Below, piece after piece: positions 3,044 to 5,905 of a stretch of 38,401 nucleotides of DNA. How positions within the stretch are numbered: position 1 is the stretch's first letter; every line of letters starts with the position of its first letter. A model generated the notes under the pieces. It was given only the letters and a program-made list of their open reading frames with translations, was not told the DNA's origin and did not search any database. The stretch is from an uncultured Clostridia bacterium. Its GTDB lineage: Bacteria > Bacillota > Clostridia > Christensenellales > Borkfalkiaceae. Both the position numbers and the translations under genes were made by a program. The stretch is taken from contig CANQOB010000015.1 of NCBI GenBank assembly GCA_947625385.1, forward strand, positions 1 to 38,401, in the 5' to 3' direction.

Positions 3044-3045
3044 TT

Positions 3046-3258
3046 TCGCGCGATTTGTTTTGCTGGCGCAAAACAAATCGCGCGAGCGAATAGGCGTTTA
3101 TGCCTCAATAGGCTTGATTCCGATTATTCGTTTCATCGGACAGTGTGCGTACCGTGGTGCGCAAATGCAGTGAAAAAGCAAAAAGCGTGGTTTTTGCTTT
3201 TTCCTTTATTTTTAGAGCAAGGGGGCGCGCGGCGGCTTCGAAAGAAGCCGCCGCGCGC
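3046..3258 (+). repeat. Hairpin-rich dispersed repeat, copy 1
   Basis: About 213 nt of non-coding DNA with a string of hairpins. SL1 is an 18-bp perfect stem (3046-3085, loop TGGC). The 60-nt core (3085-3144) contains the stem TCCGAT/ATCGGA (3119-3140). SL4 is GCGTAC/GTGCGC with a four-base loop (3147-3162). SL5 is a 13-bp A/T-rich stem (3172-3203). SL6 is a 15-bp GC-rich stem with a GAAA loop (3225-3258). The copy on the minus strand at 5186-5386 has the same order of hairpins and a core matching at about 51 of 60 positions by eye. Pairs 3, 4 and 6 of SL4 differ between copies while still pairing. The family is not recognised. It could be a structured RNA, a palindromic intergenic repeat or a remnant of a small mobile element. 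It lies between divergently transcribed genes. Confidence 0.75.
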
Positions 3259-3267
3259 TTTTCTTTT
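3225..3267 (+). terminator. Strong intrinsic terminator at the end of repeat copy 1
   Basis: A 15-bp perfect stem (GCGCGCGGCGGCTTC and its complement) closed by a GAAA loop is followed by TTTTCTTTT on the plus strand. No plus-strand protein gene ends just upstream, so it would terminate a short transcript from the repeat itself, or shield the lipoprotein promoter from read-through. Confidence 0.75.
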
Positions 3268-3355
3268 CGCCGAGGATTTTTTTATCCTCATAAAATGGTC
3301 ACGCGCGCGTGAAAAAAATTTTCATGAAAAATTTTCAAAAAGTGCGTGAAAATGC
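3268..3355. other. Short-palindrome spacer before the lipoprotein promoter
   Basis: This stretch holds a GAGGAT/ATCCTC hairpin (3272-3289), a perfect 12-bp palindrome CACGCGCGCGTG (3300-3311) and an A/T-rich near-palindrome around TTTTCATGAAAA (about 3317-3337). No gene is visible. The palindromes could be operators for the promoter at 3356, but nothing identifies a regulator. Confidence 0.4.
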
Positions 3356-3382
3356 TTGACAACGCGGGGGGGGTGATATAAT
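3356..3382 (+). promoter_or_regulatory. Promoter of the His/Cys-repeat lipoprotein, with G8 spacer tract
   Basis: A consensus TTGACA (3356-3361) and TATAAT (3377-3382) are separated by only 15 bases, and the -10 carries an upstream TG (extended -10). The spacer contains eight consecutive G residues (3366-3373). The spacing is two bases short of optimum, so changes in G-tract length could alter promoter strength. Confidence 0.75.
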
Positions 3383-3388
3383 AGATAG

Positions 3389-3404
3389 TGTCATGAAAAT
3401 GACA
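3389..3404 (+). promoter_or_regulatory. Small 5' UTR hairpin with GAAA tetraloop
   Basis: TGTCAT/ATGACA closes a GAAA loop close to the predicted transcription start, about 17 bases ahead of the AGGAGG at 3421-3426. It probably caps and stabilises the 5' end of the lipoprotein mRNA. No ligand-binding structure is visible. Confidence 0.4.
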
Positions 3405-3431
3405 AAAAATAACATTTTATAGGAGGAATGT

Positions 3432-4940
3432 ATGAACACCAAGAAATGGCTCGCACTGGGGCTCTCCGTGGCGCTCGCCGCCACCGCGGCACTTGCCGCC
3501 TGCGCTCCCGAACAGCCCAAAGAACCGGACGAGGGCGACAAGCCCTCAACTCCCCACACCCACACTTTCACAAAGTGGGATTACAGTGACACCGAGCACT
3601 GGAAGGTCTGCCCCGACGACGGGGAGCTCGACGTCAGCTCCCGTGCGCCGCACAAGGTCGACAAGAAAACCCACACCTGCGAATGCGGGTACGTGGCGCC
3701 GCACACCCACAGCTACACCCAATGGGCGCACGACGCCGACCAACACTGGAAAGTCTGTCCCGATGACGGCGCGGTCGACCCCGACTTCCCCAAAGCCGAC
3801 CACAGTTTCGACGGAGACGGCAAGTGCGAATGCGGGTATCAAAAGCCCGAAGTCTATCTTGTCGGTATGATAGCCTCGAAACCGACAAGCAAGCTTCCTA
3901 ACGTATGGCAACAGTTGGGGGAAAACGTCACCGAAGCAGTGCGCAAGAACTGCATCAAAATGGAACTCGGCGAGGACGGCGAGACCTACGAAGTGGAAGT
4001 TCTGCTTTCGAAAACCGATCAGATCAAAGTCTATGACTGCTCGTCAGCAGAAGCGTATCCGAATAATGTGTCGTGGGTGTCTGTTAGTGAGAAAAACGGC
4101 TACCTTGTGAGCTGGAAGCCGGGCGACGCCGAACCCACCTTCCGCGTGCACGACCATACATTCGGGAAGTACGCAAGCGACGCCGGCAAGCACTGGAAGG
4201 TGTGCACCCTCGACGGGACGGTGGAACCGGGCGTCGAAAAGCAAGACCACGACTTTTCGAACGGAGACTGCGTTTGCGGACAGAAGGCGCCCGAGGCTTG
4301 CAAACATACGAACGGATATTCTTTCGCCTATACGGAACTTCCCGAAGCGTCTGCCGAGGGCGGCACGCTGCAAAAGACCTGCCCCGATTGCCACGACACG
4401 CAGGACGTCCATTATGATAAAGGACTCGGAACTGCTTGTAACACCGGAATAGGCGGCAAGACCGTTCTTACGGCGGGTACTTATTATTTGAGAGGTACAA
4501 ACGGATTCCGTTTTGAGACGACCACGGCGGGAACCTATACGTTCCGTTTCGAGGGCAAGTTGATACCCACGATGGCAGACGTAAAGTTGCATACCTTTTA
4601 CATCGGCAGTAGCTATCTCTCTATGTTTGCAAACGCGAAATGTGCAATCCAAGCCTGTGGAGAGGGTGGTAAATACAAGGAACAAATTGCGGCATATGAT
4701 GTTCAGATAGACGGTTTTGTAAACGGACAAAGTAAACAATTCAATTCGCTGACATTCACCGTCAAGGATACCGATGTGGCGGACGGCAAAAAGGTTTGCG
4801 TGCAGGTAGTATTCTATATTAGTAGTTCGGCTCAAAGCGTAAATACCGATGGATATTTGATCACGGTCGAATGCCCCGCGCCCGCCGCCGCTGCTTCCGC
4901 CCCCGCCGAAGTCGCCATGTTGCCCGATACCAAACACTAA
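3432..4940 (+). CDS. Secreted lipoprotein with HWKVC-type His/Cys repeats
   Basis: Encodes 502 residues starting at an ATG six bases after AGGAGG. A signal peptide ends in the lipobox ALAAC, with the lipidated cysteine at residue 24. Three related units (about 42-87, 91-136 and 240-284) have the pattern HTHxFxxW, HWKVCPDDG and CECGY or CVCGQ. Their spaced His and Cys residues could bind a metal such as zinc, but this is not shown. A fourth degenerate Cys/His unit (CKHTNG, TCPDCHDT) follows. Residues 140-238 (EVYLVGMI..) look beta-rich and faintly like a SusE-type carbohydrate-binding domain; this is low confidence. The C-terminal part is beta-rich and ends in an Ala/Pro stretch. One HWKVC unit recurs in the lipoprotein at 24084. 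The gene stands alone with its own promoter between two inverted copies of a hairpin repeat. Its function is unknown. Confidence 0.88.
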   Translation: MNTKKWLALGLSVALAATAALAACAPEQPKEPDEGDKPSTPHTHTFTKWDYSDTEHWKVCPDDGELDVSSRAPHKVDKKTHTCECGYVAPHTHSYTQWAHDADQHWKVCPDDGAVDPDFPKADHSFDGDGKCECGYQKPEVYLVGMIASKPTSKLPNVWQQLGENVTEAVRKNCIKMELGEDGETYEVEVLLSKTDQIKVYDCSSAEAYPNNVSWVSVSEKNGYLVSWKPGDAEPTFRVHDHTFGKYASDAGKHWKVCTLDGTVEPGVEKQDHDFSNGDCVCGQKAPEACKHTNGYSFAYTELPEASAEGGTLQKTCPDCHDTQDVHYDKGLGTACNTGIGGKTVLTAGTYYLRGTNGFRFETTTAGTYTFRFEGKLIPTMADVKLHTFYIGSSYLSMFANAKCAIQACGEGGKYKEQIAAYDVQIDGFVNGQSKQFNSLTFTVKDTDVADGKKVCVQVVFYISSSAQSVNTDGYLITVECPAPAAAASAPAEVAMLPDTKH

Positions 4941-5185
4941 CGCTCATACATTCCCTTCTTCAATGAATTGGGGACGCGGGGGTCACCCTGCGTCCCCCCC
5001 TGTGGGGGGGGACTTGGGTTTCCGCGTCCGCGTGGGCGGCAGGGACCGCCGCACGCCCCCTCGCGGATGCCACCGCTCATGTCGCGCCGCCGCTCACAGT
5101 GCACTGCACTGTTGAGCGAGAATTGCGGCGCTCCACCCGAAAGGGGAGGGAGATGAATAACACTGCGAAATATCGCAACAACTCC
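4941..5185. other. Hairpin-dense GC-rich intergenic block
   Basis: No believable gene is present. The block contains an 11-bp stem GGGGACGC-GGG/CCC-GCGTCCCC (4970-4997), an overlapping alternative hairpin of C7 with G8 (4992-5012), a stem joining GCGT-GGCGG with CCGCC-ACGC (5030-5056), and a long imperfect palindrome CGCTCACAGTGCA/TGCACTGTTGAGCG with one bulge (5091-5118). None has a U-tract, so none is a standard terminator for the lipoprotein gene. The density of palindromes suggests one or more degenerate intergenic repeats. An open frame crosses it on the minus strand but shows no protein-like composition. Confidence 0.55.
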
Positions 5186-5386
5186 GCGCGGCGGCATCAT
5201 TCGATGCCGCCGCGCTCCTAAATTCCAAATTTTGTGCCTTAGGCGGAATTCACTTCCGCCGTGGGCGACACAAGTTGCCGAACCCTTTCGGCTTACTGTC
5301 CGATGAAACCTCGAATCGGAGCCAAACCTATTGAGGCATACACGCCCATTCGCTCGACGAAAATATTTCCGCAGGAAAGATTTTCG
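5186..5386 (-). repeat. Hairpin-rich dispersed repeat, copy 2 (inverted relative to copy 1)
   Basis: Minus-strand counterpart of the repeat at 3046-3258, about 201 nt long. In minus-strand order it has a 13-position stem with one mismatch (5386-5358), the 60-nt core (5354-5295) with the stem TCCGAT/ATCGGA, a 6-bp stem GCCGAA/TTCGGC with a four-base loop (5292-5277), a 7-bp stem GGCGGAA/TTCCGCC (5260-5242), and a 12-bp GC-rich stem GCGCGGCGGCAT (5215-5186). The last stem lacks the U-tract seen in copy 1. It begins only nine bases past the stop codon of the gene at 5395-5838, so the first hairpin could double as that gene's 3' structure. Confidence 0.72.
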
Positions 5387-5394
5387 CCGAAACC

Positions 5395-5838
5395 TTACGC
5401 TATCAGTTTTTTCCACACCTTTTCGAACTCTTCCTCGATGTGCAGAAGCTCTTCGGCGAGCGCTTTGACCTCGTCGTCCGCGCAGTCGTCGCACATCTCG
5501 CCGATGGTGGAGCGCAGCGCAGTCACGCCCATGACGGTGCCCTGTACCATCATTTCCGCGATATGGGAGCGGGAATCGTCCTTCATCGCGCTCATCTTGA
5601 TGCTCCCCCACATCATCGCCTTCTTGAAGGGGTTGGGGTTTTTGAGTTCGATCTCCCGTTCCTTGGCGAGGAGCGTCGCCCTGCCGCTGATGCGCTCGTA
5701 TTCCTCATGCTGGCGCAAGAGCTCCGTCTTGATCTCTTCATCGTCCGTCTCGGGCAGAATGTCCGAAATAGACTGTTTGGCGTACTCGCAGTTGCGGTGG
5801 ATCTCCGCCAATACTTCTTCGCTTTTTTTGATGTCCAT
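5395..5838 (-). CDS. Small helical hypothetical protein, possibly ferritin-like
   Basis: Encodes 147 residues starting MDIKKSEEVLAEIH. I chose the ATG at 5838 because GGAGG sits about seven bases upstream; the frame has another ATG six codons earlier that would lie over the ribosome site. The protein is almost wholly helical and charged, has no signal peptide, and contains several long amphipathic helices, for example SEEVLAEIHRNCEYAKQSI and VKALAEELLHIEEEFEKVW. A more hydrophobic helix pair surrounds MMVQGTVMGVTALRSTIGEM, followed by CDDC. The size and helix spacing resemble a ferritin-like four-helix bundle of the small Clostridial DUF type, but no clear metal-ligand pattern was found, so this is only a suggestion. 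It is transcribed divergently from rplU and ends next to repeat copy 2. Confidence 0.75.
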   Translation of the reverse strand: MDIKKSEEVLAEIHRNCEYAKQSISDILPETDDEEIKTELLRQHEEYERISGRATLLAKEREIELKNPNPFKKAMMWGSIKMSAMKDDSRSHIAEMMVQGTVMGVTALRSTIGEMCDDCADDEVKALAEELLHIEEEFEKVWKKLIA

Positions 5839-5905
5839 AATCCTTCCTCCCATCAAAAGATTGCGAAAAAAATCCGACTTCTATGCAAATCGCCGCAAAA
5901 ACCGC

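Follow-up and report, generated by a model that had tools for sequence, protein, structure and literature searches.

A multicopy family of modular hairpin repeats, often placed directly behind stop codons, in one genus of Borkfalkiaceae

The 38,401-nucleotide stretch of DNA analysed here (the window; positions 1 to 38,401 of contig CANQOB010000015.1, assembly GCA_947625385.1, from an uncultured Clostridia bacterium of the Borkfalkiaceae) carries two copies of a chain of short hairpins, copy 1 at 3044-3258 on the plus strand and copy 2 at 5186-5392 on the minus strand, which face inward. Both belong to a dispersed repeat that is multicopy and directional, is biased towards stop codons, keeps its modules near equilibrium among copies, and is present at some sites and absent from corresponding ones in related species. 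Each slot of a unit is filled from a limited set of modules, combined almost independently among the copies of one genome. These are probably genus-specific, non-autonomous repeats that spread to the 3' ends of genes and exchange short tracts; they are best read as BOX/BIME-like non-autonomous repeats whose combinatorial shuffling is unusual.

The preliminary description, made from the letters of the window, had proposed two element copies with a shared core, and pairwise alignment bears this out, the cores being identical at 51 of 60 positions. The compensated 6-bp stem that it placed two bases past CAGT is likewise confirmed: three of the six pairs differ between the copies and all remain paired. 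What did not hold is the picture of a two-copy RNA, for dozens of copies are dispersed in a genome. The 1.66-Mb genome from which the window comes (G000) has 46 matches to the 80-nt core at E<=1; in it, profile matches on the fetched loci and six additional places make up 69 non-overlapping units, one of them truncated by the end of its locus. The covariance-model search of related genomes that the description had called for was run with a model, R1, built from 75 copies of four species (the alignment for G000 took in 52 copies). Homologues proved abundant: R1 matches 58 of 101 genomes of the same genus (E<=0.001) in a search that scored at most 45 candidates per genome, which makes large per-genome counts lower bounds, and another species, G005, has 73 matches at E<=0.01. 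An order-wide sample yielded matches in 8 of 396 genomes (E<=1e-4), all in this genus, one of 142 genera.

A second core type (GAGGGGTTA..CTCAAAGACA) is accompanied by S1, S4 and S5 modules of the same kinds as those of type 1. Its model, R2, has matches in 23 of the 301 genomes searched in the family, 22 of them in the same genus; the sole match elsewhere is weak and lies in another genus (E 3.8e-4). The genome lists for the two types were counted separately, and some of the 43 same-genus genomes that have no type-1 match have type 2. Behind rpsP, loci L306 (GAGCGAAAGTGCTCGGTTCATCAATCG..) and L311 may represent a third core type, with S1-like hairpins in both and an S4-like hairpin in L306. 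A candidate homologue outside the family (G049; a 23-base match, E 0.006, in the first DNA search) was taken as chance. The units had no match in phage and plasmid collections, and viral contigs had none to one gapped unit pattern.

The claim that the family is unrecognised also stands. The window gives only three tRNAs at the Rfam gathering score and its copies have no match, nor do 16 loci from other species; the 20 Rfam matches at E<=10 around copies all fall below the gathering score, the best having E 0.0016 and 26 bits against 163 required. A known Rfam RNA family was rejected on this absence of any match above the gathering score. Nothing in a literature search, largely confined to abstracts, was recognised as this repeat family.

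A unit consists of an S1 hairpin that closes at GAG, a core of at least two types, the 6-bp S4 hairpin and an S5 hairpin, which is one of several; an AT-rich end comes next, often followed in G000 by S6, a GC-rich palindrome. The limits, judged by eye, are the S1 hairpin on the 5' side and a ATTTAGAA-like segment or S6 on the 3' side. Core and S4 together, counted from GAG through S4, are 81-84 nt long in type 1 and about 82-90 nt in type 2; since lengths of 81 to 84 nt keep no reading frame, protein coding was rejected. Units stand singly or in head-to-tail arrays on one strand with a period of about 166-172 nt, and inverted pairs are present where units face one another. Other dispersed palindromes sit inside some S1 loops, and two further palindromic repeats, both abundant (of TGTCATTCCGAGCGAAGTCGAGGAATCTC type and CCACCCCTTGAGGGGTGG type), were seen beside units or in S1 loops at L160, L163, L168, L315 and other loci.

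The near-independence of the modules is seen most directly in the decay of linkage between informative sites. Among the 52 aligned copies of G000, r2 falls from 0.41 at 1-3 nt to 0.105 at 26-40 nt and 0.023 beyond 40 nt, about the column-shuffled value of 0.021-0.022, and four-gamete pairs reach 93-95%. Decay recurs in G005 (38 units), with values of 0.31, then 0.049 at 26-40 nt and 0.062 beyond 40 nt against 0.030 after shuffling; when one unit per array is kept, r2 beyond 40 nt is 0.044 against 0.024 in G000 (48 units) and 0.056 against 0.048 in G005 (26 units). Seven-slot combinations are distinct in 61 of 63 typed G000 units. Of 21 slot pairs, tested on 50-55 units each with untyped units dropped, S2-S3 (p 0.002) and S4-S5 (p 0.001) are linked, S1-loop (0.032) and S3-loop (0.049) are marginal, and the remaining 17 are unlinked. 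Modules are also shared between species: the S5 25-mer of copy 2 is found exactly in 6 of 297 genomes of the order, all of this genus; of eight genomes chosen from the genus, seven have it, in up to 23 copies, against none for the reversed control. Host proteins of the species compared for shared modules are about 60-97% identical.

The position of units relative to genes was assessed for 105 leading units, i.e., those whose S1 is clear and whose upstream sequence extends for at least 330 nt, with open reading frames of at least 90 codons replacing a gene caller. Forty-two of them start at most 12 nt past a stop codon on the same strand, whereas the baseline from these flanks is 3.2% (p 9e-35) and the opposite-strand control gives 2 of 105; the bias is seen both in G000 (17/41) and elsewhere (25/64). 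The usual gap from stop to unit is 2-8 nt, and units so placed lie in the sense of the gene that they follow. Of the units that start with TTCACG, 32 in all, 20 lie directly at a gene end and, by eye, another 11 come after a preceding unit; the remaining one has neither in front of it. Nine of ten scanned host proteins bear NCBIfam names (GalE, RuvC, FtsY, TrmD, AlaS, LepA, Ffh, DnaK and Prs); the tenth, encoded directly upstream of copy 2, has none. No gene end directly precedes copy 1.

The same sites in different species are occupied in some and empty in others. The gene rpsP was located in 56 of 61 genomes of the genus, and 30 loci were fetched, of which 25 could be read by script; by eye, 14 of these are occupied, one is unclear (L304) and ten have no unit. 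At each of the occupied sites a hairpin with GAG at its end begins 0-16 nt past the stop codon, and in three of them (L307, L308, L312) the remainder of the unit is not recognisable; one unit-empty site (L324) has a short hairpin. The distance from rpsP to the next gene, which we take to be khpA, is 14-176 nt in eight measured empty sites and 163-1472 nt in occupied ones. Some host genes bear units in two or more species. A comparison of 83 host-bearing units gave 11 cross-species pairs at related hosts, which mostly differ in S1, S4 or S5; at the alaS site, e.g., the hosts are 96% identical and the S5 module is different. One exception is a unit that three species (L234, L236, L238) share almost unchanged together with its flanks, which looks like a recent transfer of exchanged DNA; at L236 the upstream gene body is other DNA.

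Within the units, pairing is maintained unevenly. Retention of hairpins through sequence change, which the preliminary description had read as suggesting selection for structure, is supported for S4, which covaries, and for S1 and S5, and fails for the core stem TCCGAT/ATCGGA, which decays without covariation. The S4 pairs form in 99.1% of cells over 75 copies, five of the six being changed on both sides, and 137 units yielded 23 S4 stem sequences, not all of them perfect; the core stem is paired in 79% of cells with one double-change cell and was rejected as a conserved stem, RNAalifold on 52 copies predicting S4 only. Of 167 units, 65 form all seven S1 pairs (5.4% in shuffled flanks) and 87 form six of the seven (39% in shuffled flanks); there are 20 S1 stem sequences, several of them singletons of doubtful placement. 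The S5 hexaloop GCGTGG with at least four closing pairs occurs 49 times in 158 units on eight listed stems, two of which are near-duplicate or very short. For the whole tested structure, paired cells, double-change cells and the covariation score all exceed 500 of 500 shuffles, and 80% of cells are paired against 28-57% for slid versions; neither the count of double-change pairs (8 against 7.4) nor that of pair types (22 against 21.6) rises above the shuffles. The covariation signal comes from S4 and is weak in S2 and S3. The first and fifth stems had been described as changing sequence while staying paired, and S1 and S5 do so; much of the difference between copies 1 and 2 is, however, a swap of whole hairpins within a limited set and not pair-by-pair mutation.

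Both window copies are predicted to fold as RNA better than 200 of 200 dinucleotide shuffles (z -4.85 for copy 1 and -5.02 for copy 2). The opposite strand of copy 2 has a still lower z of -7.44, and folding alone therefore cannot assign the strand. The parts of the two copies and the neighbouring genes are listed in Table 1. The S6 palindrome of copy 1 with its T-rich stretch may be terminator-like, and the GGAGCGCCGC..GCCGCCCACGC block that follows copy 2 occupies the S5 slot in other copies.

Table 1. Parts of the two units and adjacent features in the window.
Feature	Position	Strand	Basis or remark
Copy 1 S1 5' hairpin (CGCGCGATTTGTTTTGC / GCAAAACAAATCGCGCG), variant a1	3044..3084	+	S1 stem test across the family
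Copy 1 core (S2, S3, conserved GTTTCATCGGACA)	3084..3146	+	Alignment; R1 match C15:3084-3166
Copy 1 S4, 6-bp hairpin GCGTAC-CGTG-GTGCGC	3147..3162	+	Covariation, 75 copies
Copy 1 S5 hairpin GAAAAAGCAAAAA-GCGTGG-TTTTTGCTTTTTC, recurrent hexaloop	3172..3203	+	
Copy 1 S6, GC-rich palindrome then T-rich stretch	3225..3258	+	
Lipoprotein-like gene between the inward-facing copies	3432..4940	+	No Pfam family; one of about 37 genes
Modules past copy 2: TTGCGATATTTCGCAG hairpin; GGAGCGCCGC..GCCGCCCACGC block	4975..5185	-	Limits by eye
Copy 2 S6, GC-rich palindrome	5186..5218	-	
Copy 2 S5, CGCCCACGGCGGAAGTGAATTCCGCCTAAGGCA variant; contains the 25-mer at 5236-5260	5232..5268	-	
Copy 2 S4, GCCGAA-AGGG-TTCGGC	5277..5292	-	Alignment, covariation set
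Copy 2 core (S2, S3)	5293..5355	-	Alignment
Copy 2 S1 5' hairpin, variant b1 (CGGCGAAAATCTTTCCTGCGGAAATATTTTCGTCG)	5355..5392	-	2 nt past TAA of gene 5395-5856(-)
Gene whose stop codon directly precedes copy 2	5395..5856	-	No NCBIfam family; one sub-threshold Pfam match

From these patterns we infer movement itself, copying with template switches and any effect on mRNA. Non-autonomous units would spread to new gene 3' ends and would be copied anew or converted from each other by short tracts or template switches, which would shuffle the modules; the hairpins may be retained as a requirement of the transcript or of the machinery that copies or mobilises the units. Within mRNA, the units would form structured 3' untranslated regions (3'-UTRs) or intercistronic segments and could alter the stability or expression of neighbouring genes. 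A bolder version, which we put forward tentatively, is that the units represent a new kind of mobile element, a string of mutually exchangeable hairpins that would be copied to sites just past stop codons and rebuilt each time from several donors by template switching at short constant joints, giving combinatorially diverse 3'-UTRs and module alleles that cross species.

Several observations weigh against a spreading, exchanging repeat. No mobilising gene was found among the two families searched, Y1_Tnp and RVT_1; G005 has neither, and type-1 units are present in 12 of 23 Y1-bearing and 13 of 23 reverse transcriptase-bearing genomes against 58 of 101 overall (hand tally). No clear target-site duplication was seen in flanks inspected by eye only, and the empty rpsP sites are too diverged to define one. 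More than half of the leading units (63/105, copy 1 among them) start more than 12 nt from a stop codon, and 44 of 105 have no same-strand stop within 60 nt. The linkage remaining beyond 40 nt in G000 with one unit per array and among all G005 units, though small, exceeds the shuffled values, the genomes are drafts of tens to hundreds of contigs, and the occupied sites could be inherited functional UTRs and not insertions.

The last point leads to a rival that we regard as unlikely though deserving of weight, namely that the units are cis-acting RNAs of 3'-UTRs or intercistronic regions, selected by the host for stability, attenuation or protein binding, whose modules vary because mainly shape and loops matter. 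The sense orientation directly past stop codons of genes such as galE, ruvC, ftsY, trmD, alaS, lepA, ffh, dnaK and prs fits such a role, as do the S5 hexaloop on varied stems, the hosts that bear units in two or more species, and the mispairs of S4 on the sense strand, where GU cells outnumber AC cells (61 to 14). These wobble counts, however, are of copies and not of independent events, and S1, whose register is disturbed by bulges, has no clear excess (113 GU, 91 AC); the antisense strand folds equally well, units form tandem arrays and take other repeats into their S1 loops, ten of 25 readable rpsP loci are empty, and type 1 has no match in 43 of 101 genomes, some of which do carry type 2. 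That the mosaic is an artefact of short-read assembly in draft genomes is hardly credible: several units do lie at or near contig ends, yet linkage decays within about 40 nt, below the expected assembly word length, the decay recurs in a second genome, and orthologous sites differ in modules.

Two further rivals concern what the units travel with. The copies might delimit a composite mobile cassette bearing lipoprotein genes, of which G000 has 37 (68 search matches merged by hand). Thirty-four of the 69 G000 units are near one of these genes, in the sense orientation when upstream (11/14) and antisense when downstream (19/20), i.e., facing inward, and the lipoprotein-like gene of the window is bracketed in the same way. 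Half of the G000 units, however, have no such gene next to them and, at the distances applied, many of the 37 genes lack a unit. A motif scan of limited reach, recovering only 8 of 30 G000 loci, found no lipoprotein gene at any of 42 G005 loci or at those of other species. We take the link to be local history and not the nature of the element, and consider a cassette improbable. Similarly improbable is a REP/BIME repeat mobilised by RAYT (REP-associated Y1 transposase). The units are dispersed, palindromic, extragenic and mosaic, and in G000 one Y1 transposase gene lies about 200 nt behind a unit (L025, G000:C20), with a second unit about 300 nt further upstream. Y1_Tnp (PF01797) was found at E<=1e-5 in 23 of the 101 genus genomes and, at this threshold, not in G005 with its 73 units, G006 or G023, draft genomes that may lack a gene. 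RAYT or a reverse transcriptase as the common mobiliser was rejected, since neither tracks type-1 units across the 101 genomes.

The lipoprotein-like proteins share a signal peptide, HxH..HWKVC repeats and a recurrent C-terminal tail. In the promoter of the window gene (3356-3382), a G8 run lies between TTGACA and TATAAT with a spacer of 15, and the scanned G000 loci contain 13 such G-run promoters in total, 12 with G8 and one with G7 and a spacer of 14; these are candidates for slipped-strand phase variation of surface lipoproteins.

Among known systems, BOX and REP/BIME come nearest to these units. In Streptococcus pneumoniae and S. suis, BOX elements comprise boxA, a variable number of boxB and boxC, with extra modules in S. 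suis; they are predicted to form stem-loops, are sometimes transcribed and are thought to be non-autonomous mobile elements (PMC3049150). The units resemble them as modular dispersed repeats of varying length that form stem-loops; unlike BOX, with which they were compared by plan and not by sequence, their slots mostly have alternative hairpins in near-free combination and their 5' end is often at a stop codon. REP/BIME sequences are extragenic palindromes in mosaic arrays, the palindromes being preserved by complementary changes (PMC2817692), and all of this applies to the units; they differ in being directional multi-hairpin chains, arranged head to tail on one strand and not in alternating orientation, and in that Y1 genes do not track them. 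They are small, highly base-paired and multicopy and have no coding frame of their own, as in the definition of miniature inverted-repeat transposable elements quoted in PMC3049150, but by eye neither terminal inverted repeats joining the ends nor a target-site duplication was noticed. With lineage-specific structured RNA motifs of the Rfam kind they share covarying hairpins and recurrent loops, but not the dozens of copies per genome, tandem arrays and varied gene partners or the absence of an Rfam match. In plan, the units resemble BOX, and by the tests made they are not a RAYT-linked REP.

The usual treatment of small dispersed repeats is to sort them into families and subfamilies. Here, the paralogous copies within one genome act like a recombining population at the scale of tens of bases, and this behaviour, together with an exact 25-base module shared across species, makes the copying mechanism testable from sequence. 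Placement at stop codons would bring folded RNA within reach of the terminating ribosome, and the units would offer a natural set of 3'-UTR variants.

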